From contig JARWMV010000235.1 of the NCBI GenBank assembly GCA_030998015.1, forward strand, positions 1,178,001 through 1,242,000: DNA of 64,000 nucleotides, given 5' to 3'. Source of the stretch: Ceratorhiza oryzae-sativae. Lineage: Eukaryota > Basidiomycota > Agaricomycetes > Cantharellales > Ceratobasidiaceae. The position numbers and the translations under genes are program-made. A model generated the notes under the pieces. It was not told the DNA's origin, searched no databases, and saw only the letters and a list, made by a program, of their open reading frames with translations. How positions within the stretch are numbered: the stretch's first letter is position 1; each line of letters opens with the position of its first letter. Below are positions 44,836-58,673 of the stretch, piece by piece.

Positions 44836-45540
44836 CTAGTAAACAAGCTTCAATACATCAACGGGTGATGCATTTGGGATTGCATGGCAGAGTAGTGATT
44901 GAAGAAAGAGGGTGGGAAGCCTGAGTGCACTAGGAGCAATCTCAGTGAGCATATCTGTGAGTAGCTTAGATGCAAGATATATCCCATCCAAACTCTCAGC
45001 CTTGAAAACATCTTGGCGCCCAGGCTGTACATAATCAATGGACTTGGCTTTGAGCTTGAGCTCATCAACACCTTGATACAAGACACTACAAGAGGTATTA
45101 TCACCTGGGACATCAGCACTGGGATCCAAAGGCTGTTCTAGTGCAGTAATCATGGGCATGTCAAGGTGTTTTGAGAGGTTGGCAAAGCAGACTGTTGGGC
45201 AAAGTGACGCTTATTCTACAGAATAGGATATTAGCGCAATGGCAAATTTAGAACATTAAAGAAAACATACTAGCATAGAGGTCTCTTCACGCTTGTAGTA
45301 CTGGCGTATCAAGGTCATGTCAAAGAGAGTTGAAACTTTCTGTGATGCTCAATCAGGTGAGTTCATCTTTGTGATCACTGACATTGTTTGTTCCTTGGCC
45401 ATTGAATTTGGAACAATGCTATTGATCAAGACACCCAAGTAGGCAATGAGATCAGCACTGGCCACCATCAACATTTCCTCCCAATATTGCTTGTTGTGAC
45501 CCTCTGGAGGCTTCCTTGTGAAGCACTTAAGTAGTGGCTG
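44836..45540 (-). pseudogene. degenerate hAT-type transposase C-terminal fragment
   Basis: Minus-strand frames contain INSIVPNSMAKEQTMSVITK, followed by a TGA and then VSTLFDMTLIRQYYKREE. I recognise this as the C-terminal dimerisation region of a second hAT-like transposase lineage of basidiomycetes. A downstream frame (44836-45159) gives a 107-residue open segment without a match. It directly abuts the presumed outer end of the gypsy LTR at 45541. It is a relic, with no element ends identified. Confidence 0.45.
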
Positions 45541-45810
45541 TGTTGACAGTTTGGTGCTATACAGTATGTATTGAGTGTTCTAGTTACAGTGTTTGCTATG
45601 GTCTATGGTGGTTGACAAGATAAAGCAAGCTGAGGTGTCCAGTCTTGCTTTATCCTTCTTATATATGCCTGTGGCTGCAGTGGCTGCAGACGTATTATCT
45701 AAGCACACTCTGCAGTAGGTGTAGGTTATGTACAGTACTATGGGTTAGGTAATTGTTTGTCTTAAGTTTGTGCAGCTCCAAATCTTATAGAGCTGCGCAA
45801 GGTCCAAGGG

Positions 45811-46036
45811 GTAGGCGCTGAGGTCACATGTTCCTGCTGTAAGCGCCAAGATCACGTGACAACTTGCTCCTCGCTCCAAGTAACAAGGGAGAGAAATGCT
45901 GGAGCAAGTTCAGGGTAACCACTGTAGGTGCTGAGGTCATGTGATCCTTCTGTAAGTGCTGAGATCACATGACAACTCACTCCTTGCTCCAAGTAACAAT
46001 GGAGAGAAATGCTGGAGCAAGTTCAGGGTAACCACC
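45811..46036. repeat. 113-bp tandem repeat in LTR U3
   Basis: Two direct units start at 45811 (gtaggcgctgaggtcac) and 45924 (gtaggtgctgaggtcat). Each contains paired TCACATG/TCACGTG-like motifs and ends gagcaagttcagggtaacc. A third partial unit continues beyond the hAT at 49410. Such U3 repeats usually act as transcriptional enhancers; that role is inference. Confidence 0.65.
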
Positions 46037-46048
46037 ATAAGCGCCAGC

Positions 46049-49000
46049 TAGGGATTAAAATGGATAGTGAGAAGTTGGATGAGCCCGGGTAATTACCTGC
46101 AGGAAATTACCTGGAGAGCCTTGGCCGGTTCCGGAAACTGAATGGAATATATGACATGGGTACACTAGGCATGGGAGCAAACCCAGGTGAGCCCACAGGT
46201 GCCAAGCACTGGGATTATGGAGCAGCACTTGCTGTTTGTACATTTTACAGTAAAATGTATATTTTCAACTGGGCAGCAATGACGTCCTATATGCGTGTCA
46301 TATGCTTGCTAGAAAAATAGCGCATAATTTTCTTGACTCACCAGTGTATTTTGTGTTTATAAAAGCACAAGCAGGGAGCATTCAAAGTCATCAACATCTT
46401 TTCGACATGTCTACAACTGAACCCTCCGAACTGCCCTCTGCTACCCATCCTGCTCCAGATGAGCCTGTTCGTCATTGTCTAAAGTGTTGTAAAGGTCTCA
46501 GCGCAATGAGCAATGCTGAAGTCTGGGATGAAACTGACTCAAACATCTTAGGTACATCTCTCATGCATTGATGCTTGACAGCCTTAGTGCTGAACCATTT
46601 ATTTTTAGATGCTGAGTGCCAGGGTTGGCGCTCTAATGCGTATGATCACTACAACGTTGCACTCGAGCAGCACTTCAATGGTCTTGGCAAGCCCAACAAG
46701 CTTGTACTTCACTTTGACTGTCGGTTCAACTCTCCCCACCATGTGTCTCAGTTTCGTGAGCGCCTTTGTACTGGCAATGGAACCCAGAATCTCTTAAGCA
46801 CAGCGTGTGCTTGCAATTGTCAGAGGGGAATTCTGATTCCCACTGACGCCTCACTCTATCCTCAGCTATCTTACTCAGCTGCAAGGCACCAAGCCATCCT
46901 TGCTCTTTGCTGTGCTTGGGACCGCAGGCCGTTTGAGTCCATTGTTGACAATCTGGCTCAACAGGAGGTTGAGATGCTTTGTCCAGGCACTCGCCTTCCT
47001 ACTGGGGCAACACTCTCCAGAGACGCCCTCCATATCTACCAATCAGGGTTGCTTGAGGCAGCGAATCACCTGTGTGTAAGTCTAGTCACCTTTTTGTGCT
47101 GAATTGCAAAAATATTTACTTGATTTTGGCATGCGCAGTCAATAAATGGTGCGCTCCATTTGGCTGTTGATGGTTGGACAAGTCCTTCGTCTCAGTTGTT
47201 CTTGGGTGTGATTGTGTTTTTTGGTATGAACAAGCATGTATGTACAAGGCCATCCTTGAGTTTGTTCAGTAAGTTGCGCCCTCATATTATATGCACTACA
47301 GATGTACAACTAATGATTGTTGATACAGTCTCACAGATGCGCATACAGGCAGTTATATGGCAGAACGCATTCATGACTGCCTGAAACAGTATGGAATTGT
47401 GCACAAGGTTAGAATATACTTATTCTGTATCATATTAACCTATCGCTCACTGCTGCATGACCAGCTCATGGGCATTTGTCTAGACAATGCTTCAAATAAC
47501 AATACTCTTGTAACTGAACTCCAGCAGCTTATTGGCAACTTTCGTGGCCCTTGTGATTGGGTCAGGTGCTTTGCTCATATCATCAATTTAATGGCAAAGG
47601 TATGGTGTTTGTAATAATCATACAGCGCATATATAATGTCAATTCACTGCTACGCAGGCATTCATGACCCTATTTACGGCTCCCCCACGTCAAATAAAAG
47701 CAGCAGCTACCTCAAACAAAGCAGTCCAGCTGCCCAGCACCAAATCTAACAATCCAAGCCTGGATCCCGAGGATGCAGCTGACAATGTCAACCCCGACAA
47801 GCTTGAACACAACATAGGAGTCACACAGGGAGTGACTACACAGGCAATTGCCATCATGGCTGCCTCAGGCATGCATTTAAGCCCTGAGGAAGTGGCCAGT
47901 GCTCGGCAAATTATTCCAAAAGTTAGTTTTATCTTATTTACCTTGATAGAAGTAGCTTACAGCTGTAATGAGATATCTGGGCTGGCGTGGCATGTGAAAG
48001 ACTTGCCGGTTTTCACTACTGCCTTTGAAGAGCTTGTTGACAAAGATCCAGAGCTTGAAGGCGATGCGAAAGCACTCCCGATGCGCTGTGCTACACGCTG
48101 GAACACTGACAGGATATGCATTGCAGGCCACCTGCACTTTAAGACCCCAGTGCAGTGGCTCACCAGCAACCCACGCTTCAAACTCAAGAAATATGCCTTG
48201 ACCAACCAGCAGTGGGCATTAGCTTCCGAGCTAAGCAAGGTGCTTGAGGTATGTGCATTTTTTCCACTTCTAATTCCTGCTTATAGTATATTTTACTGGT
48301 CTTCCAAGAACCCACTGACCACTTTTCGCAGTCAGAAGTCCCACTTGTTCACAAAAAACTACCCAAGATCCTGACGCTTCGCTCTCGACTGTGCGACATC
48401 TGTGACAATGTCCTCAACTGTGGACTCCATTGCATCACCCAGGTTGCAGCTGAAGCTGCGCTCCAGGTGTTCGAAAAATACATGGGTTCAATGATGGAGT
48501 CAGATATATACACTCTAGCTGTTGGTAGGTTATTTTACGCCTTTCGGATATATTTTTTTCACACTATTCTGACTCAAATTCAACTAGTAATGTGCCCCAA
48601 CCGCAAACTGAAGTGGTTTGCAGATCATGGGTTTCCTACCGAGCTAATCTGCAATCGCCTTGTCAGGTGCTTCAACTCTCTGTACCCTCAAACCACCCAG
48701 AGTAGCCACCCCCAGCAAATGCTAAGGGTAAGATTTATCTCAAGTTTGCCAGTAACTACACTCAACTTGATGCATATAGGCTAGTGGCAGTATTTGGACC
48801 CAGCGCCACACTTCAACCTTGTCGCCGCCAATCCATCTTGAGTGCAACTCAATCCAGGAGTATCTCAAGACTCCAGTTGTATCCTCTTATGTCATCTCAC
48901 AATACGGCAGGGTGCTTTCTTACTGGGACTCCGAGCTGGAGCACTGCCCTTGTGTTGCCCACCTGGCTCTGGATCTATTGACTGTACCTGGTAAGTTCAT

Positions 49001-49401
49001 CTGCACTCTCTGCTTAAGTATCCTAGAAATGACATGCACCTCAGCTTTGTCAGTTGACGCTGAGCATGCATTCTCAGGGGGTCAGTTGATGATGAACCAC
49101 CTCCAGCACCGTATGTCATCGTGCACATTCCAAGCTCAGATGGCCATTGGATCGTGGTATGGCACCCCCCTTGCTCCCAGAACTTGACAACGTTGCCCAA
49201 ATTATTGAGTCTCACATGTAAATAATAATATATTTTCTGTCTAAATACAAGTATGGTCTCCCCAGATGACACCTGTGTTTATCACCCACGCAGAGAGTCT
49301 TGCAGGTAATTGGTGGCTATGCAAACCGGGCTCCACCTGACCTGTCTTCGCACCTGCAGGATTACCCATGCAGCAACCTGGGCCACCCATTTTGATCCCT
49401 A
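46049..49401 (+). mobile_element. hAT transposon, 3353 bp, with TIRs and 8-bp target duplication
   Basis: The left end TAGGGATTAAAATGG (46049) is mirrored at the right end (ccattttgatcccta, ending at 49401). The flanking octamers are GCGCCAGC (46041-46048) and GCACCAGC (49402-49409), an 8-bp duplication with one mismatch. CTGCAGG-containing subterminal sequences are shared too. The size, TAGGG-type termini and 8-bp duplication are hallmarks of the hAT superfamily. The internal gene is a hAT transposase. The insertion is younger than the LTR it interrupts. Confidence 0.88.
46407..49187 (+). CDS. hAT-family transposase, multi-exon
   Basis: The ATG at 46407 (MSTTEPSELPSATHP) leads into a Cys-containing N-terminal region (HCLKCCKGLS), possibly a BED-type DNA-binding motif. 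Further exons carry LHLAVDGWTSPSSQLFLGV (first catalytic Asp), MGICLDNASNNNTLVTEL (second Asp), CDWVRCFAHIINLMAK and the insertion domain (MRCATRWNTDRI). The C-terminal dimerisation segment SVDAEHAFSGGQLMMNHLQH contains the likely catalytic Glu. This D-D-E order with a C-terminal hATC region is diagnostic. Introns have normal boundaries and I saw no certain disabling change, so the element may be or recently have been active. It lies wholly inside the element ends. Confidence 0.8.
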
Positions 49402-49587
49402 GCACCAGCTAAGCGCTGAGGTCACATGACCTTGTTTATGGCTTGTTCTTCTTAGGAAAAATGCCATAAACCTGTAAAAATATTTGGTTGTTTTGTTATG
49501 TCTGTTTGACAGGTCATAACATTATCCCCCCCCTTTGGACATGTCTTGGGGGACCTTGAGACATGGTTTAGTTCCTTAAGCAAAAGG

Positions 49588-49714
49588 AATCTCATGCACC
49601 AAGGAGGTTAAGGGTGCTGGACTTGAACCAATGACCTTTCGGCTGATTCAGTATTGTTTGATGAGGTCAGGCTGAGTCAGGCTAGACCCCTTAACCTCTC
49701 TGTTACATGAGATT
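49588..49714. repeat. long imperfect hairpin next to the polypurine tract
   Basis: Outer arms AATCTCATG (49588-49596) and CATGAGATT (49706-49714) and inner arms GAGGTTAAGGG (49604-49614) and CCCTTAACCTC (49688-49698) are perfectly inverted. On the minus strand the loop side holds GGTTCAAGTCC, close to a tRNA T-arm/B-box. It sits between the Rep-like frame and the 3' LTR. It could be a tRNA-like or SINE-like insertion, a structured RNA or a replication-origin-type stem-loop. Confidence 0.6.
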
Positions 49715-49826
49715 GTTTTTCTTTTCTTTGTTGTGGAGGTTATTTAGGGGTGAGGATTTGTCTGCTTCTTCTCAGAATGCCCCAACTGTTTGAATGGGCA
49801 TAGCAGAAGTTGTACAGTACAGTAAA

Positions 49827-51188
49827 TTATTCTAAGGGAAATACAAAGAATGGTTTTCCTCCTGCATACACCCATTCCACATTTCTTGATACCCATAAGT
49901 CCCCTTCTTCCCCCTCCATGTCTGACCAACATTTCATGATTGCCAACCGGCTATTTCCCAGAATAACTGTTGGCTGTACCTTCATTGATTTCACATGCAC
50001 ATACCTGCCTGTGAAGTCTGCCTCATACTGGCTCAGGGCCTTGAGCAAGTACTTCCCATTTGACTGGACCATGTTGTCCAGGATCCAAATGTCGGCATCT
50101 TCCAACAAGTTGCCCATATTCCACACATTGCACATCTGGCTGTGGCAGCCCTTGGATCGTGCATATGCTGTTTTCCCTGTTCCAGTTTCTCCTTCTATCA
50201 CCAGGATGCAATGGCACACCCCTCTTCCCCTCTTCTTGACCTCCTCAGCAAACCATCTGTCTGCTCAGTCAATGTGCTCCTGGTCTTCTGGGACCTCTAA
50301 CTCCACAGGGATCGCAAGCATGCAACCCCAGTCTTCCTTGTATGTGTACTCAGCATATGCTCATACCGAGTTCCACATTGTCACCATCTGGAGGGGGTGG
50401 AGGTGCTTGAACGCCTGGTAGTACTCCTGTTTCATTTCTGAGGCAACAATCTCTGTCCCATCCTCCAAGTCTGCCTCCATCCTTGACTGTTTTCCACCCT
50501 TTCCCTTCACCAAGATCTCCTCCAACCTTTCCAAGGTCAGGTCCCCTGCCATCAAATCCTCTATCTCCTGGCCATTAGCTCCAACGTCCTTCCAGAGATA
50601 GTTGAAGGCATCCCTTGCTGGGTTGCCTCCTGGTCTGTCCTTGAGGTCTTTGGGCTGTATGTTGGGGTGTTGCCCCTTGAAGTCCCAGAACCCTGCATTC
50701 TGGGTGTTCCACCTGCCCTTCTGTTCCTGACTGATGGAGAGGGCATGGACATGCAGGGGCTGGGTTGGGTTGTAGTTCAGCTCCTCCAGGTTGTGCTGTT
50801 TGACCACAGCTAAGGTTGCCCAGTGATTGGGCTGGTGGTGGCAGAACACCTTGTATCAGGCGGCGAGCCCACTTGAGGGCTGATTGTGTAGCTTTGACCA
50901 GGTCAGCAGCACTGCCCTGGTCTGGACATGGAATTGGGGGACCCATGCAGTTTTGGTCAGCTCTTCGGACCTGTGATCCGTCAGCATAAGCCGCATAGAA
51001 GTGGGTGAGGGGGCTTGGCTTGATTCTGAGGGCACCAGCAATGGTGATGGCAACCTCCGCCCTGCACTTGATTCATTTGGCTGGGGTGTTCCCACGTTCA
51101 AGCCATCTTCACTTAGCATTGTTGGTATTTTTAGAAGTAGATGCATCTTGTGGGGAGGGCATGAGATGATAGCCCCTTTTACCCCCAA
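49827..51188 (-). pseudogene. CRESS-type (geminivirus-like) Rep relic, three in-frame stops
   Basis: A single minus-strand frame of about 450 codons is interrupted only by TGA at 50856-50858, 50361-50363 and 50265-50267. The N-terminal part shows rolling-circle endonuclease signatures: a strand ending VLLTWSK (motif I-like), HVHAL (the metal-binding HUH motif) followed by a HPNIQ segment, and YLWKD (the YxxK catalytic Tyr). The C-terminal part has a superfamily-3 helicase: Walker A GETGTGKT, Walker B IWILDNM and a motif C-like ILGNS. This order is that of Rep proteins of circular single-stranded DNA viruses, closest in pattern to geminivirus-like Reps, which are known as endogenous copies in fungal genomes. 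The stops leave it unable to give one protein. It lies between ORF3 and the 3' LTR of a gypsy element. Confidence 0.75.
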
Positions 51189-51398
51189 AGGTGTCCCCTA
51201 GATATACTCTCTCTGGTTGTTGTGGTCATGTGGTTTCCTGATGTAGGCTTGTGCTGGTTATGACACATCTCCAAGGGGTGCCCTTCCTGTGTTCCCCCAT
51301 GTCAGCCTTTCTCCTCACTATGCTCATGGCCTCTGCTCCTCCACTTCGGTTGGTGCCCCCTCTCCAACCCCTCTGGTAGTTAGGGGATAGCGTATATT

Positions 51399-51520
51399 CA
51401 TGTGACTAGGCTAGGTCATGTGATTCCTGTGCTTTGTTGTTTGTTTTCTGGCAGGTGGTCATGTGACTAGGCTAGGTCATGTGATTCCCATGCTTTGTTG
51501 TTTGTTTTCTGGCAGATGGT
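51399..51520. repeat. 61-bp tandem repeat (iteron-like) between divergent ORFs
   Basis: Two units start at 51399 and 51460 with catgtgactaggctaggtca and end ttgttttctggcag, followed by a partial third (catgtg at 51521). They lie between the start of the Rep-like frame (51188) and the start of the plus-strand Cys-rich ORF (51644). That is where CRESS DNA genomes carry origin iterons and divergent promoters. No nonanucleotide stem-loop was found. Confidence 0.6.
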
Positions 51521-51643
51521 CATGTGTCTGTTGGTGTCACCTGACCAGACCTTGTTTTGATGTTTGTGCAAGTTATTGTGTTGCACTGTGATTTTTTAAT
51601 GTTTGTGGTTTTTGTTGTTTTCCTTCCTCATCCTGTCTTTACT

Positions 51644-52175
51644 ATGCATGTTATTTCCCTTAACTACAATCCCCTTGACTGCACCTGCTGGTCTCTCCCT
51701 GAGGGGGAGTACTGCACCTACTGTGATGTTGTGTGCAACGCCTCCCTTGAAGACTTCTATGGAGGTGTTGGGGATTGGTTCTTCTGTGGGGTGCCAGGTA
51801 CGTGTGCTCATTCTTCATTGTTCTCACATAGCTAACTTGTTCTGTAGAAGAGCACATCCTCCTTGATGGTCAGGCCCATGAGGCCACCCTTGAGCGTGTC
51901 TGGGTGCTTGTTGATCAGGACTACAAGTCCTTTGAGGAGGGTCTCACCAGGCTGCTCTTGCCGAATTCTTTGAGGAGGGCTCTGCTCCCTTGTTTGATGA
52001 GGCTTCGCCCTTTGCAGCATCTGGTTCTGGGTGTTTCCAGAACTACATGGCTGACTTCCCAGGGGGGGAGGCTCCTTGGCTGCAGCCCACTACCCAGTCA
52101 GTTGTTCAGACCAATAAGAAGGATAAAAAAGGCAAGAAGCCCTATACCTGGCCCCTCAAGGGCAAATGTAAATAG
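51644..52175 (+). pseudogene. Cys-rich ORF of unknown function, one intron, one frameshift
   Basis: Exon 1 (51644-51797) encodes DCTCWSLPEGEYCTYCDVVC, with five Cys in one short block, then GGVGDWFFCGVP. A 50-nt GTACGT/CTGTAG intron leads in phase to EHILLDGQAHEATLERVWVL. Around 51945-51965 the best frame shifts by one base into EFFEEGSAPLFDEASPF and runs to 52175, ending in a Lys-rich tail. A 16-A run follows at about 52211. The Cys spacing suggests metal binding. No family is recognised. It is divergent from the Rep-like frame and convergent with ORF3, so it lies antisense to the gypsy element. Confidence 0.45.
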
Positions 52176-52267
52176 AGAGTAAAAAAGGAAATGTATTAAG
52201 TTTGATGTGTAAAAAAAAAAAAAAAACTCTTATACATTTGGGAGAAAATCCGTGGGAGGCAAAGTGG

Positions 52268-53197
52268 TCATATGGGGGCTGGTTCCAACAGTGGCACCTC
52301 CTCCAGAGCTTCAACAAGCTTGTTTTCCCACTGGTCCCAGTCCTGTTTGGCTTCCTCCACAGCTGGGTCCAGGGTGGGTTCCTTTATTTCTGGCTTGGCT
52401 TCTTCCTCAGCCACAACCAGTGATTCTAGGCTTGATGTAAGGCTCATCATATCAGTGTTGTAATTGGTGTTTTTGTTTGGGTGCACCTTCACCCAATTTT
52501 GGAAGTTGCTCATGTTTGCCTGCTTTGTCCTGATAGCAGTAAACATCTCATCAGTGGTAGTTGCTTTGAGCAGTCCCACATACGGCACAGCTGGTGTCAA
52601 CTTCCATTCTTCCAACAATGCCTTGGCCCAGTGCTCCACCTCCCAGTCCCCCCCATCTGCCATTTGGCCTGTGGCCCTCCTCTGTTGTCTTGCTGCCTTG
52701 GTCACCACATCGACTGTTGGTCCCACAATATTGTCAACAACATACATTGGTGTTCTTAGCAAGGTGTTTCTTGTTGTTGGCTTCCAGCTTCCATGCCATG
52801 TCAGGACCCCTAACCTGGGATCCAGGTACTTGTCATTGTCAATCCAGTTCCTTTCATCCCTTAACTTCTTTGGGATGTACACTAGGTTAGCCCCTGGCAA
52901 CAGTTGTTCAGTGTACCTCTGGGTGTCTTCCACACTGGAGCAGTACATCCCTGGTTTAGGACAATTTTCCCTGCCAGGGTAGGGTGCTGGCCACCTAGTG
53001 GTGGGTGGCTGCCAAAGTGGGGCCACCTAATTTTCAGCAAGTGGTGTGTAACAGTTGGGATGTGCAACTGGGTGAGTGACGAAAGGCATGTTTTGGGGTT
53101 TTGCAGGTGTATTGTGGTGCAAGTGAGGCGGTAGAGCAGGCTCTGGCCTTTCTTGGGTATCCTGGATGGCTCTTTTTAAAGCTTTCCAGATCCTCAT
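52268..53197 (-). pseudogene. gypsy ORF3, overlaps pol stop (ATGA), one in-frame TAG
   Basis: The ATG at 53197-53195 overlaps the TGA that ends the integrase/chromodomain frame (ATGA). From there 309 codons are open except a single TAG at 53029-53027. The product starts MRIWKALKRAIQDTQE and is Pro/His-rich. The middle is better structured (NYDKYLDPRLGVLTWHGSWK-like, here DKYLDPRLGVLTWHGSWK). An acidic tail (EEEAKPEIKEPTLDPAVEEA) ends at 52268. No signal peptide or membrane span is seen, so it is not an obvious envelope protein. A position immediately downstream of pol with start-stop coupling argues that it belongs to the retroelement. Family unknown. Confidence 0.55.
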
Positions 53198-53727
53198 TTG
53201 GTTCTCTTTGGCCTGCCTTTTGAGTCACCTGAGTGTTGACTTGTCTTGACTGGCATTGGTGCATCTGGTAAGCACCTTTGCAAGTCATTTAGAACCTCTT
53301 TCATGTCAGCAAACTTGCTGGCACGTTCCATTGTGTCTTCTATTGGGTCATAGCCCTTCCATCTGATTTGGTAAAACAGCTTGCCATTCTGCCATTCATA
53401 ATTTGCAATGTGGTCCACCTTGTATTCCTCCTCTCCTTCTTCCGTTATGATTGGTGGTGGTTTGGCCTGCCTTCTTTGGAAGTCTTTATCTTCTGTGAAT
53501 GGCGAGAGGAGATTTACATGGAATACATTGTGTACACATATGGTTTTAGGTAGGTCCAGGTGATATGCATGGGATGAGATCTTTTCTGTGATTTCAAAAG
53601 GCCCCCCTTTTCGGTTGTCCAGTTTCTTGGAGGGTCTCTTGGACAAGAGGTTTGTTAGGAGCAGCCAAACCTTGTCTCCCACCTTGAATTCCCTCCCTTT
53701 CTTTTCCATTTGTTGGTGTAATTCCAT
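53194..53727 (-). pseudogene. gypsy integrase C-terminus with chromodomain
   Basis: REFKVGDKVWLLLTNL is the GPY/F-type integrase C-terminal fold. GPFEITEKISSHAYHLDLP and HNVFHVNLLSPF follow. The chromodomain reads YKVDHIANYEWQNGKLFYQI then RWKGYDPIEDTMERAS, with the aromatic-cage W/Y residues. Chromodomains target chromovirus integration to H3K9-methylated chromatin. The upstream integrase core is missing and the frame is cut by an insertion at 53755. Confidence 0.85.
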
Positions 53728-53754
53728 TGAGGCTCTTGCCTTGTCCCTAGAGGT

Positions 53755-55181
53755 GCTGTGCCAGGCTCCTGCAGCCAGAACTTGCCAGAATTCTGGCTAA
53801 AATTCCAGCAAATTCCGGTGTGCCAGTTGCCAGTGCAGGTGCCAGAATAGCCTCAAGGGTGCTGGAGTCCTAGGCGGAGTCCTGCAGTACTGGCATACCT
53901 GCATACCTGCATACCTGAATACTGGCACATTGTCACCTGTACATGACCACCACGGATTGCATATATTAAGCACTCATAAAATGCGCAAAATTCAGCGGAT
54001 CAAATTGTACTTTACTTGATTACAAACGGTTAAGAAATGAGCAGTATCGGCGCAGAATCGTCTAAGAAAAATATTCAGGGGGATGCGCAGATGTTCAAGC
54101 TCGCTATCCTGAGCTCTAATTGGGGCGATATACATACCAATCGACTCGTCTCACTGAGAGGAATCGAATGCACATATTTTCATAATAAACGAACGCTTTT
54201 ATCGAAAGTTATCAGCGATATAAAGGGGGAAACCCCTGAACAGCGCCACAAGCGCTAGTGAAACCAGCTGTGCAAACCTTGCTCCCTTGCGCGGAGTCGA
54301 TGCGCATTATCATAAGGACTCTATATACCAAAAACCAGCCTGATTGAAGGTGTTTTAGCTGGTGAAACTGGGGGAACAGCACCCCTGATGCTGAAAACCC
54401 CCTGAAATGCGCCATGGACACCCACACAGTGCTATTCTGGCTTTCTTAGTATCACAGACAGATTCAGGGATGCTTATTGCCCTATCTCAGGTACCTGAAA
54501 CATCTGGAACAAGCTTATAACATAAATTTCCAACCATGTGCAGTGATTCTGCTGGGTTGACAGTGAGGTTGCCTGCACACACCCCGGTTCATAGTTATCC
54601 AGTCAATGTATTTACTAGATATAATGTCAGTAGGGGTTTTTCAAGCTCAGGAGAAAGGCTAGCTGGTCGGATAAGCTTCAAACAGCTTTCTTTGTGGTGA
54701 AATAGCATGTGCGCATTTCCCAGAATATTTCCTGAGCATCAATTTGGAGCGAACTATGCGTTATCGAATTTTTTGCGCGGAGCAAATGACATATCTGTGA
54801 TCTCCTGATTTTTGCGCATTTAATGAGCTACTTTGCGAGAGATTGTGGTGAGGTTTATGGCCCTGGAAATGTTGGCCACAAAGACCCGAACAAAAGAACT
54901 GCGTAAAATTTGCCAGAATGAATTTTGTATGAAACGTGCTCTATATCATTGGAATGCTCTCTCTTCTGCGCATCTAATGAGCTATTACACAACTTGATGT
55001 GGTGAGTTCTGACCATAGCCAGTTGCAGGAGTCCTGGGATTCTGGCATGCTCCTGCACCTGCCAGAATTCTGGCACGGACTCCGGCAACTGGCAAGCCAG
55101 TGCCAGTGCCAGTGCCAGAATGGCCAAAAAGCGCAGGAGTCCTGCTGCAGGTGCCGGAGTCCTGCAAAATTCTGGCACAGC
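53755..55181. mobile_element. 1.43 kb non-autonomous insertion with GCTGTGCCAG termini
   Basis: The ends are inverted: gctgtgccag at 53755-53764 and ctggcacagc at 55172-55181. Both subterminal regions (about 150 bp) are packed with CCAGAATTCTGGC-, CTGGCA- and AGGAGTCCTG-type repeats in both orientations. The insertion splits the gypsy integrase frame. No transposase is encoded; the only ORF (54037-54258, plus) is short and unrecognised. I could not identify a target duplication, so the superfamily is open; hAT-like non-autonomous is one option. Confidence 0.6.
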
Positions 55182-55240
55182 TTCTCTACTTGTCCCATAC
55201 CTTTTCCATTTGATTACGCATGTTGTCTGCAGCAGGTGCC

Positions 55241-56122
55241 TCAGACAGTTCTTCTCCCTACCCTGATGTTGTTGAACCCCCATCGAACATCCATTTTTGA
55301 ATAGATGGTTGCATCCTTCAGTCTCTCAATCAATTCTATTTGGATTGGAAGTGGAAACCTGTCTGGCTTGGTGATGTCATTCATCTTACGGTAGTCAACT
55401 ACCAACCTAAGCCCTCCATCTGCTTTGTTCACATAGAAACAGGGTGCAGCTACAACTGAGTGGCTGGGCCTTATTTTCCCATTTCTTAGTTCCTCCTCTA
55501 GGTACTCCCTGAGCACCTTTGTTTCTGCTGGCGACATACTGTACCTCTTTGCAGGCTTTGGCAGCTCCGCTCCCTCGATCAGGTCCATTTTGAAGTCTAG
55601 GTTACCTCAGTGGGGTGGAAGTTCTTGGAAACCTTCTTCCCCAAATAGGTCTTCAAAATCCCTAAATTCTTCTGGGATTTGTAGGCTTTCACTTGCTGCC
55701 CTTGCCTTGATTTCATCTGGGTATGAGATGGTAAGGTCTTTCCAATCTATGATAGGTTCTGCTTCTTCAAGCCATTCTTTCCCTAGGACTATGTCTGTGT
55801 CACCTAGGGTCATTACATAAAGGGAGCATTTCAGTGTCTTCCCTTCCACTTCAATGTTTAGTTCTGCCCTTTCTTCTATGGCATCCTTGATTTCATTTCC
55901 ATCAATGGCCACAATTGATTTCTTGTGTTTGAGGGGAGTGGTTGGAATCCCCTTTTCCCTTGAATAGGCCTTATCAATGAAGTTGGTTGAAGATCCTGAG
56001 TCAATCAGCGTCTTTGCTGGTTCCATGATTCCCTCTACCGTAGTGTATATTATTGATTGATTACTAGACTTCTTGAGGTAACATACATCTGCGGTAGGGG
56101 TTATATTGGGGTCCTCCAACAT
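55241..56122 (-). pseudogene. gypsy protease and truncated reverse transcriptase
   Basis: The frame opens MLEDPNITPTADVCYL and holds the aspartic-protease site TLIDSGSSTNFID, then VLGKEWL. After an in-frame TGA at 55609-55607 it continues into RT with PAETKVLREYLEEEL, FYVNKADGGLRLVVDYRKMN and YSKMDVRWGFNNIR. There the RT ends: the YxDD-containing half, RNase H and the integrase core are absent, and the next codons (APAADNMRNQMEKVW) belong to the distal integrase. This is an internal deletion of roughly 2 kb or more. Confidence 0.8.
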
Positions 56123-56139
56123 GGAAGTGGTAGGACCAA

Positions 56140-57003
56140 TTAGTTTTCCAACTCAGAGCTGCTTTCTTCTTCAACTTCTCTGCTGGCCTTCCCTTGTATC
56201 TTAGCCTTGTTGTAGGTCCACTGGCCTTGGCACTCCTTCAGGACATGCCCTGATTTACTGCATTTGATACAGAGTCCTTCTTTCCTTCGCCTGTCCTTTT
56301 CACTGTTTGGTATCCTTACCATGTTGTTGGTTTGGGTATTCCCCTGTTTGCCACTGGTCCCTAAAGGCTTGTTCCCCCCTTGTTTGTATTTTGCTGGTGC
56401 CCAGGTTGAATTTGATGAGTTGCTGGTCCTTGTTCATTTTCTGGTTTGCAAACTGCATGTGTCCATTTTGCAGGCAAAGTCAATTAATTGATCTAAGGTA
56501 TATGATGGACCTTCAGCCTCATTTGCCAGTACTTCAATCCTTAAGATCTCTTGTCGTACTTCGGGTTTTAACCCTTCCCTGAATTGGTCCTTGAGGGCTT
56601 CCTGGTTCCAGTCTACCTCTTGGATCAGGATCCGGAATTGGGTAGCATAATCCAATGCACTCTTGGTTTGTGTTAATTTCCTTAGTTTCTGGATGGTCTT
56701 TTCCTTTATGACTGGGTTGTTAAAAGCATCCAGGAATCCCTTCCTGAAATCCTTCCAGGATGCAAGAATACCTGTGTGTTCGCCTGCTAGTAGTTTCCGG
56801 CAGTAAGGTTGTGCCCAGTTTGCTGCTTCCCCCTCCTCCATGTTCATTAACACAGCAGATATCTTTTTTTGGTCATCAAAGGCTGATTCGTCATAGTCAG
56901 CAAAGAAAAGTTCCATGCTGATTATGAAGTTCTCTGCTTCCTTCCCCTTTTTCCCATTAAATTTGCTGGGTCTCCCTAGTTGTGCCTCCTTAGGAGTTGT
57001 CAC
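56140..57003 (-). pseudogene. gypsy gag with CCHC zinc knuckle
   Basis: The retrotransposon gag domain reads FIISMELFFADYDESAFDDQ, NWAQPYCRKLL, SWKDFRKGFLDAFNN and KLTQTKSALDYATQFRIL. A TGA at 56436-56434 interrupts the frame, which then continues to a CCHC knuckle CIKCSKSGHVLKEC and ends at 56140. The protease frame begins 18 nt downstream in another phase. No ATG opens the gag at 57003; the sequence beyond is unrelated, so the N-terminus and 5' LTR have been lost. Confidence 0.82.
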
Positions 57004-57857
57004 AAACTGACACGCATATATCCACTCTATAATATTTTCTCAATTTACTACATTTTATGAGACCAGCTTCAAACATACTTGCCTTTTATGGTATATCTGT
57101 GTCATGTGATTCAGGGGGTGGTCCGGACTGACAACCAAGATGTATTTCAACTCTGATGTGAAATTCCGCAGTTCCACAGTCACTTCTACTGCTTCTATCT
57201 CTTATCAGTCATGACTCACTGTACGGACTTGTTTGTTATGATGTGGCTCGTACTATGTATATAAACCAGGTCAAGTTCGCAGAGGGCTCCTCAAGAACTT
57301 GACCTCTCGTCGAATACAAGTTCTTTTCTTTTCTTACTCTTTTCCTCGTTGCCTGACTTGTCGTTGTCTGTTATGGATCACTAACATTTTCTATTATTTT
57401 AGTCTGCTCTGCCAACAAGCGATGCCTCTGTAATTAAATTGTGAAATACTTGAATTTGTATGCACTTTGAATTGTACTATTTTCTGTTTCATTAAATAGT
57501 ACAAAATTCCCGCTCTCCAACGCATATTTTATTAAGTTTTTACAATAAGATCTAAGAGAGATACAGAGGTTGCAATATTTCCTCTTATCAGGAGATATTG
57601 ATTACAACATCGCACCGCTCATATCTCGGCAACCGCTTACGCTATCAAAGCGATCTTGTGCTCTATCGATAGCCAATCTTCGGCGGTATCTGCTGCCCGA
57701 AGATCGTCGCGATCCACCGGATCCTCGCGCCGGAATGGCCCGAAGATCATTAGAATCTTACTGGACCATCAATCAAGATCTAATGACTCCAGTGAGTCAG
57801 GAGAGCTTCCCAAATTGATCCAGAAGCTTCTCTGACTCACTTTATGACTCACTGAGA
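57004..57857. other. transposon-derived junction region
   Basis: No gene. A TATATAAACC core near 57259 within promoter-like sequence, and repeated gactcact motifs (57205, 57780-57850), suggest remains of another LTR. Its ends could not be placed. Confidence 0.35.
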
Positions 57858-58673
57858 TGTAGCCTCTGTTCATTACATGTATATACTATGATAATATGAT
57901 CTACAAGCCAATAGCAGGTCTCAGATGCATCAATGCCTTTGATCCACACCCTGTCTTTACTCTTTTATCCTATACTGGGCTAGGGTGTACCCCAAGTATA
58001 GCAGTACCCTCTTTTGATGATTGCACTGGCATGCATGTATCTATTTGGCTCTGGAATGCCCTCCTCAGGGTATAAAAGGACCTCCTCTGAGGCCCTTCCA
58101 GACCACCTTCCCTTCACTACTCAACCCAGACTGGTTATTGGTTTCTTTTCTCTTTCTATTTCTCTTGTCTGTGTGTGATTTCTTATATAACTAGTACTGA
58201 GGAATAAAGTACCATATTAGTTATATACTGTCTGAGTCATTGTATCTTATATACAGAGATATATAAGGATACAATATTGCCTGATTGAGCATGACATTAA
58301 GTACCAGCTATTAGAGGAAATCTAAGTACCTGTAGCTGAGGAAGTACATGCATTAGGCAGCCCACCATCTATCCTATAAGCTATCGCTTAAGCCTAGTAT
58401 TAAGATTAGTATCAGTTAGTCCAAGCAACTAGGGCTGAACTACATTTAAGATATCTAAGGGAACCTGACCATAGTAGTCTTGCTCTTTATACCTATAAAT
58501 TAGTCAGTTTACACTGTGAAAGATTAAGACTACCTTGAGTGTTACTTGATTGCATTGCAACTACTTTGAGCCTTCTTACTCTAGTCTAAGAAGTATTGAG
58601 TACGATTAGTGTATACTAACATATCTACATTTGCTTAAGCTCTAGATATTCAAGTGTACCCTGACCCGTAACA
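57858..58673 (+). repeat. 5' LTR of the plus-strand gypsy element
   Basis: It begins TGTAGCCTCTG at 57858 and is placed to end CCGTAACA at 58673 (TG..CA), about 816 bp. It contains a TATAAAAGG box at 58071 and an AATAAA signal at 58203, spaced as in an LTR promoter-R region. It is followed at once by TTGGTGAAGCGACCC, a plausible primer-binding site. The left end is inferred from terminal dinucleotides; no 3' LTR lies in the window. Confidence 0.6.

Follow-up and report, generated by a model that had tools for sequence, protein, structure and literature searches.

In this work, we examined a 64,000-nucleotide stretch of the genome of Ceratorhiza oryzae-sativae (GenBank assembly GCA_030998015.1, contig JARWMV010000235.1, positions 1,178,001 to 1,242,000; hereafter the window), which contains a damaged long terminal repeat (LTR) retrotransposon with additional genes. 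On the minus strand, the end of pol, encoding the integrase C-terminal SH3 and chromodomain (53194..53747, assigned by Pfam and by comparison of copies), is followed by open reading frame 3 (ORF3; 52271..53224, 318 codons), which overlaps the pol end and encodes a protein without assigned family. Further downstream lie a Rep-like gene of 428 codons (49836..51119), recognised by its homologs and by HUH motifs I–III and Walker motifs A, B and C, the polypurine tract (PPT; GGGGGGGGATAA, 49522..49533), located by the junction pattern and abutting the LTR, and the inner part of the 3' LTR, which starts with TGTTATGACC (49402..49521, delimited by copy comparison). A Cys-rich gene occupies the plus strand between ORF3 and Rep. 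It consists of exon 1 (51644..51797), whose Cys pattern is found again in the sister family described below, a 50-bp GT-AG intron (51798..51847) seen in the row alignment of copies, and exon 2 (51848..52175), which is frameshifted in the window copy and has 37–40% identity to the sister family. Rep and this second gene diverge from an intergenic region (51120..51643) with a conserved non-coding block at about 51270–51430. The order integrase-chromodomain, ORF3, Rep-like frame, PPT and LTR, which had been claimed in a sequence-only reading of this DNA, was confirmed from the window coordinates. We consider it very probable that this is a chromodomain Ty3/gypsy lineage in which pol and the PPT are separated by a cargo of about 3.7 kb (ORF3, the opposite-strand intron-bearing Cys-rich gene, the conserved intergenic region and Rep), that this block is copied together with the element and predates the split between its family and the sister family, and that Rep is under selection and geminivirus-like.

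The LTR/PPT junction pattern, searched with up to 2 mismatches in the whole genome (48.8 Mb), gave 165 junctions of the family (84 + 81), and the reversed pattern used as control gave 0. Of the 100 listed sites, which are all exact and on contigs up to C208, 91 have Rep alongside (64 from the first Rep listing, 14 from a further Rep search or fetched loci and 13 from targeted fetches). The targeted fetches covered 14 junctions, 13 of which have part of Rep within less than 700 bp, one being a fragment beside a deletion. At five of the 100 there is only a short Rep-end pattern, which occurs at 44 sites in the genome, and at three (C5, C10 and C190) only neighbouring cargo. Seen from the other side, scoring of the best 98 among 253 candidates in the Rep search yielded a list of 99 matches, of which two rows on C238 were excluded from the count; 66 matches lie on C1–C208 and 31 on contigs outside the junction listing. 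For 63 of the 66, a listed junction lies less than 5 kb away on the 3' side, at a distance of 232–305 bp in 62 cases and 1613 bp in one, and the other three have PPT/LTR sequence with altered letters at that place. Hence, all 66 adjoin the LTR end of this family. Three additional Reps were inspected. The first is followed by an ordinary PPT and LTR, in the second a deletion extends as far as the outer LTR end, and the third is considered below. Furthermore, 20 copies were fetched with flanks and aligned to the window. In 12 of them, window positions 49401–53747 (in one case to 53675) form a single LTR-joined block with 91–95% identity. In the remaining 8, the block is broken or is interrupted by repeats known elsewhere, or the copy comes from a subfamily whose Rep–LTR part has diverged. 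Gathering genomic copies, the check proposed in the sequence-only reading, therefore found that ORF3, Rep, PPT and LTR remain together in many copies whose flanks differ. Neither arrangement that it had named as contrary to a unit, ORF3 directly before the PPT or Rep modules in unrelated DNA, was encountered among the junctions examined and the 66 Rep matches on C1–C208. The view that ORF3, Rep, PPT and LTR are one unit is strongly supported, and the cargo block is copied together with the element.

The chassis of this unit is a chromodomain Ty3/gypsy LTR retrotransposon. One copy (L013) has Retrotrans_gag (3e-11) and Ty3_capsid (7e-10) matches followed by RVT_1 (5e-29), RT_RNaseH and Integrase_H2C2 in one frame. 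In the window, Tf2-1 SH3 and chromodomain similarity spans 53194–53727, and the Pfam Chromo profile matched the integrase C-terminus with 25.9 bits there and 26.6 bits in a second case (cut-off 25.1). The LTR is about 783 bp long, reads TGTTATGACC...GGGTCAYRACA and has TG...CA ends. After it stands TTATAAAGCAAGCTCTTAACTTAACT, identical in the 4 copies read, a candidate primer-binding site beside the 5' LTR. Both element ends could be read in five of the nine elements tried, since the fetched pieces of the C20 (L011), C19 (L019), C16 and C18 elements did not span both ends. Four of the five are flanked by 5-bp target duplications in differing flanks (C243, TGTTG; C234, TGTTA; C38, GGTGT; C10, ACATT); Rep was matched in C243, C234 and C38, and C10 has other cargo only. 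The fifth, the L027/L029 element (about C19:83049–92889), has a 15-bp direct repeat, TTCTTGGTTACATTG, in place of the 5-bp duplication.

The age of the cargo was assessed through diverged pol copies. The best 100 of 1179 candidate pol matches were scored, with identity down to 71%, and three of the four copies at 71–72% (L059, L060 and L062) were followed downstream, with C26:117291 and the 75% copies lying outside the sample. These three loci represent a sister family, 72% identical in pol, which has pol, ORF3, the antisense Cys-rich gene and Rep in the same order and on the same strands. Relative to the main family, identity in the three loci is 55–72% in the chromodomain end, 39–49% in ORF3 and 37–40% in the antisense exon on the opposite strand. 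Rep of L059 and L060 is 69–72% identical over residues 86–428 and 40–49% in the N-terminal piece, and that of L062 is broken into pieces of 48–74%. In two of the three loci the PPT is followed by TGTTATGACC. No cargo-free gypsy relative was found downstream of these three pol copies, and all three have the cargo. A further locus, C48 (L061), has an LTR inside pol and then the contig end, and is therefore uninformative on cargo-free relatives. The LTR at or near the same pol site in L020 (about 2278–2972) and L061 (about 412–1089) may reflect shared ancestry or a preferred site. The cargo block is thus older than the split of the two families. Moreover, all Rep homologs bearing an organism name come from Ceratobasidium; those of Ceratobasidium AG-Ba have 46–78% identity, and Ceratobasidium homologs of 427–429 residues have 66–74%. 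Ceratobasidium AG-Ba also has an ORF3 homolog (46% identity), and another of its proteins is similar in its tail to antisense exon 2 (31%, E 8e-6 in a two-sequence comparison). The presence of Rep and an opposite-strand Cys-rich ORF within one LTR element, as the sequence-only reading had it, is accordingly supported by both the many copies with different flanks and the sister family.

The identity of the Rep-like protein is indicated by its motifs. The HUH motifs LLTW, HVHA and YLWK occur in the order I, II, III at positions 71, 123 and 174 of the query protein P0001, and behind the HUH domain follow SF3-type Walker A (GETGxGKT, 310), Walker B (ILDD, 344) and motif C (ILGN, 386). This ordered six-motif pattern was met in none of 200,000 shuffles. 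Across 22 aligned homologs, Walker A always retains its GKT and Walker B its first Asp. The strict pattern was passed by 12 of the 29 proteins of at least 380 residues (query included), and some of those failing it are gene models without the protein start. With E values up to 1 allowed, 17 of the 77 homologs match Gemini_AL1_M, which lies ahead of Walker A in the six listed singly; in the best case, P0011, it spans positions 11–106 of 107, just ahead of Walker A. Searches of the PDB by sequence, and of PHROGs and NCBIfam, gave weak unrelated hits only. A scan of IMG/VR with the Rep alignment and two geminivirus-type patterns found no viral relatives in that collection, which is seemingly poor in small single-stranded DNA (ssDNA) viruses, and a circovirus-type pattern matched 7 contigs. 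Plasmid relatives were sought by tblastn, and the two hits obtained were judged to be chance. The assignment as a viral-type, geminivirus-like Rep with a predicted HUH endonuclease and SF3-type helicase is well supported by these motifs, short of proof.

Rep is under purifying selection. In the 20 of 21 sequences with enough coverage (190 pairs), the ratio of nonsynonymous to synonymous divergence (dN/dS) has a median of 0.34 and a range of 0.11–0.73, and in the eight pairs with the highest dS (0.67–0.72) dN is 0.075–0.116 and dN/dS 0.11–0.17. Rep differences by codon position number 6376, 6550 and 12420. The median dN/dS is 0.34 for ORF3 (19 copies) and 0.24 for the pol part (15 copies). For exon 1 of the antisense gene, pN/pS is 0.35 vs 0.57 and 2.01 in the other frames; this gene has better support from its conservation in the sister family than from frame statistics. 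By eye, 29 of the 92 whole-query Rep matches were counted as free of stops, in a listing biased toward intact copies because it holds only the best 98 of 253 candidates; the other 63 have stops, mostly TGA. In the LTR pair of the C19 element, 31 of 37 differences are transitions, 24 of them in CpG context. The TGA stops and LTR transitions have the appearance of C-to-T decay, as by methylation or a process like repeat-induced point mutation. Divergence between copies is uneven along the element, with Rep dS up to 0.72 and at most about 0.10 in the pol part, and ORF3 of about 60% identity accompanies 97% identical pol and 90% identical Rep, e.g., at C90:30124–31011. Since the divergence of Rep and ORF3 far exceeds that of pol, cargo genes have probably been exchanged between elements, perhaps through template switching when two RNAs are packaged together. 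These elements are mosaics, in which near-identical pol is accompanied by ORF3 of at least two lineages (about 60% vs more than 90% identity).

The non-coding part of the cargo is also conserved. The intergenic block of L011 is 75–83% identical to the sister family, which is similar to the Rep and pol windows (mostly 58–84%) and exceeds most windows of ORF3 and the antisense gene (about 42–70%). A 61-bp unit is present twice at 51398–51526, a stretch with four TCAYRTGA palindromes. All eight occurrences of this motif in window positions 45401–53800 fall in the LTR or the intergenic region, and each of five scanned copies has 3–6 in the intergenic region and 4–7 in the LTR, with few others beyond the LTR. 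The 113-bp tandem unit of the LTR (window 45811–46035) bears TCAYRTGA palindromes as the Rep intergenic region does. The motif may represent Rep sites, host basic helix-loop-helix (bHLH) sites, or both. A hairpin origin was considered and rejected, as two TCACGTGA palindromes trivially make an inverted repeat and the fold was no better than shuffles, and no origin is therefore claimed. The introns of the two divergent genes differ in their fate. In each of the three sister loci, Rep is interrupted by a 61-bp GT-AG intron. The main family (L027) has none at this position, and five JGI homologs (P0024, P0047, P0059, P0070 and P0076) have additional residues there, consistent with a read-through intron in the predicted proteins. 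On the other hand, the antisense intron is kept in all 12 rows displayed. Loss of the sense intron and retention of the antisense one is the pattern expected if the copied form is sense RNA.

Several results count against this picture. One of the 100 junctions (C32) has no Rep within 700 bp, and no LTR lies within some 700 bp of the third additional Rep (C20:24794), which we read as a broken copy. Antisense exon 2 has pN/pS of 0.54 vs 0.82 and 0.58, so that its frame preference is not clear. The intergenic block of L027 has 67–80% identity to the sister family in most windows, the TCACGTGA palindromes could be host bHLH sites, the canonical nonanucleotide [TCA]A[AGT]TATTAC is absent from the cargo of 8 copies, and the folding energy of the window intergenic region is not unusual vs shuffles (z −0.71). 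As for the protein, the best Pfam Rep match is Gemini_AL1_M in P0011 with 19.5 bits and E 0.001, below the cut-off of 24, and Gemini_AL1 reached only E 0.23 in one of 77 homologs, likewise below cut-off. A profile search of the genome gave two weak Gemini_AL1_M hits, neither at a listed Rep, and none for Gemini_AL1. The AlphaFold models are poor (mean predicted local distance difference test scores of 38.5 and 49.4), and Foldseek with these low-confidence models gave no match at E ≤ 0.001; because both structure predictions are poor, the fold searches carry no weight.

These points bear on the alternatives to different extents. The protein could be another P-loop ATPase with HUH-like motifs by chance, for which the missing Pfam match above cut-off, the lack of a solved relative by sequence and the poor structure prediction would speak. 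We regard this as unlikely, since the six motifs stand in Rep order without a single match among the shuffles, 12 of 29 long proteins pass the strict pattern and Gemini_AL1_M precedes Walker A in the homologs listed singly. Slightly less likely still is a cargo that has no function, as a passenger or a fossil, and is amplified by the gypsy machinery. Many copies are indeed decaying, as seen in the 63 of 92 full-length Reps with stops and the mostly CpG transitions of the C19 LTRs; however, dN/dS is 0.11–0.17 in the most diverged Rep pairs, 29 of the 92 are open, and the Ceratobasidium homologs have kept 427–429 residues at 66–74% identity. The sequence-only reading had also named a circular Rep-bearing element integrated into an old gypsy copy. 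Such a nested insertion would fit the layout in which Rep and the Cys-rich gene point away from a shared intergenic region, like the genes of an ambisense ssDNA genome, and the window taken alone would be compatible with a recent event. Nevertheless, a recent insertion is refuted, since almost all of the junctions inspected show the same order and so does a family whose pol is no more than 72% identical, and we give it a negligible probability. What stays of this proposal is capture in the ancestor, and the divergent layout of Rep and the Cys-rich gene makes one ancestral capture likely.

The preferred reading of a co-copied, selected cargo leaves a choice as to what Rep does. We propose that the divergent set of Rep, intergenic region and second gene, the latter having no recognisable Pfam domain, of a capsid protein or any other, may have entered as a captured ambisense ssDNA replicon. 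After reverse transcription, Rep would recognise the intergenic region on extrachromosomal circular element DNA, and perhaps also the LTR, which has the same palindromes. It would then nick and amplify the circular DNA, raising the DNA supply before integration. That Rep acts on the circular DNA in this way, at the intergenic region, is a tentative suggestion from motifs and conservation, to which we give somewhat less than an even chance. An equally tentative alternative is that Rep is retained for a non-replicative service, such as setting a host DNA-synthesis state, anti-silencing, or regulation through DNA binding at sites in the LTR and the intergenic region, with no rolling circle. Geminivirus Rep has cell-cycle and silencing roles, and selection on Rep says nothing on which activity is selected. 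The restriction of TCAYRTGA, in the window and five copies, to the LTR, the intergenic region or sites outside the element also agrees with it, as does the failure to find a canonical origin. On the other hand, the nuclease and ATPase motifs are both conserved, which a pure regulator would not need, and a conserved non-coding block adjoins Rep. The fuller model of a hybrid element, which would insert itself by reverse transcription and integration but amplify its circular DNA by rolling-circle copying that Rep starts at the intergenic region, is slightly more doubtful than either. In such a case, the element would link retrotransposition with ssDNA replication.

The copy in the window is itself decayed, with three in-frame TGA codons in Rep, a hAT element in the LTR, and an insertion and a deletion in pol. 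The outer part of the 3' LTR (45492..46048, minus strand), identified by comparison with other LTR copies, includes two 113-bp tandem units. It is separated from the inner part by a hAT element foreign to the unit (46049..49401, plus strand; Dimer_Tnp_hAT, E 2e-7), which does not divide the LTR in other copies. The ends of this hAT element are inverted (TAGGGATTAAAATGG/CCATTTTGATCCCTA), and 8 bp inside the LTR are duplicated around it (GCGCCAGC/GCACCAGC). Likewise foreign to the unit, a 1.44-kb element (53748..55188) is inserted in pol and has a 98.9% copy in L016; it shows diverged terminal inverted repeats (TIRs), and the L016 copy also adjoins pol sequence. The pol and gag remnant follows (55193..56997, minus strand), in which about 1.9 kb is absent at 55259 relative to L027. 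Beside the gag remnant lie two more repeats, 56998–57368 (about 372 bp) and 57369–58673 (1.3 kb), which recur inside other copies.

The chassis described here is already known. Chromoviruses of the Ty3/gypsy group share the LTR, gag, the reverse transcriptase–RNase H–integrase order with SH3 and chromodomain, the PPT and the 5-bp duplications, whereas they are without the ~3.7 kb of Rep-like and antisense spliced genes between pol and PPT. The sequence-only reading knew of no described chromovirus with such cargo, and we likewise found none, nor any account of a Rep gene inside an LTR retrotransposon, in the titles and abstract openings of the open-licence literature, which does not prove that none exists. 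Helitrons and other HUH transposons are eukaryotic mobile DNA with an HUH Rep, from which the present element differs by its LTR, reverse transcriptase, integrase and 5-bp duplications, and no RepHel architecture was seen. Among fungal transposons, a Rep has already been described in Tuber melanosporum, where Liu et al. (2011; PMC3198968) report a geminivirus-like transposon with 37-bp TIRs, a transposase gene and a geminivirus-like Rep. As a multi-copy fungal mobile element with such a Rep, it is the closest precedent we found, although it has TIRs and a transposase in place of an LTR retrotransposon with its own pol. The same study reports endogenous Reps like those of geminiviruses and SsHADV-1 in fungal chromosomes, with Laccaria (5) among the basidiomycetes; these are integrated virus-like sequences, whereas the Rep described here is an internal gene of a retroelement (PMC3198968). 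ssDNA replicons and retroelements are usually treated as separate worlds. A lineage that keeps a selected Rep through deep divergence represents a stable merger of a retroelement with an ssDNA-type gene, and another route by which genes of the ssDNA-virus type persist in fungal genomes. It also offers a high-copy natural system for asking whether rolling-circle replication can serve a retroelement. If the hybrid two-mode replication were true, the element would naturally connect the retroelements with the ssDNA replicons.

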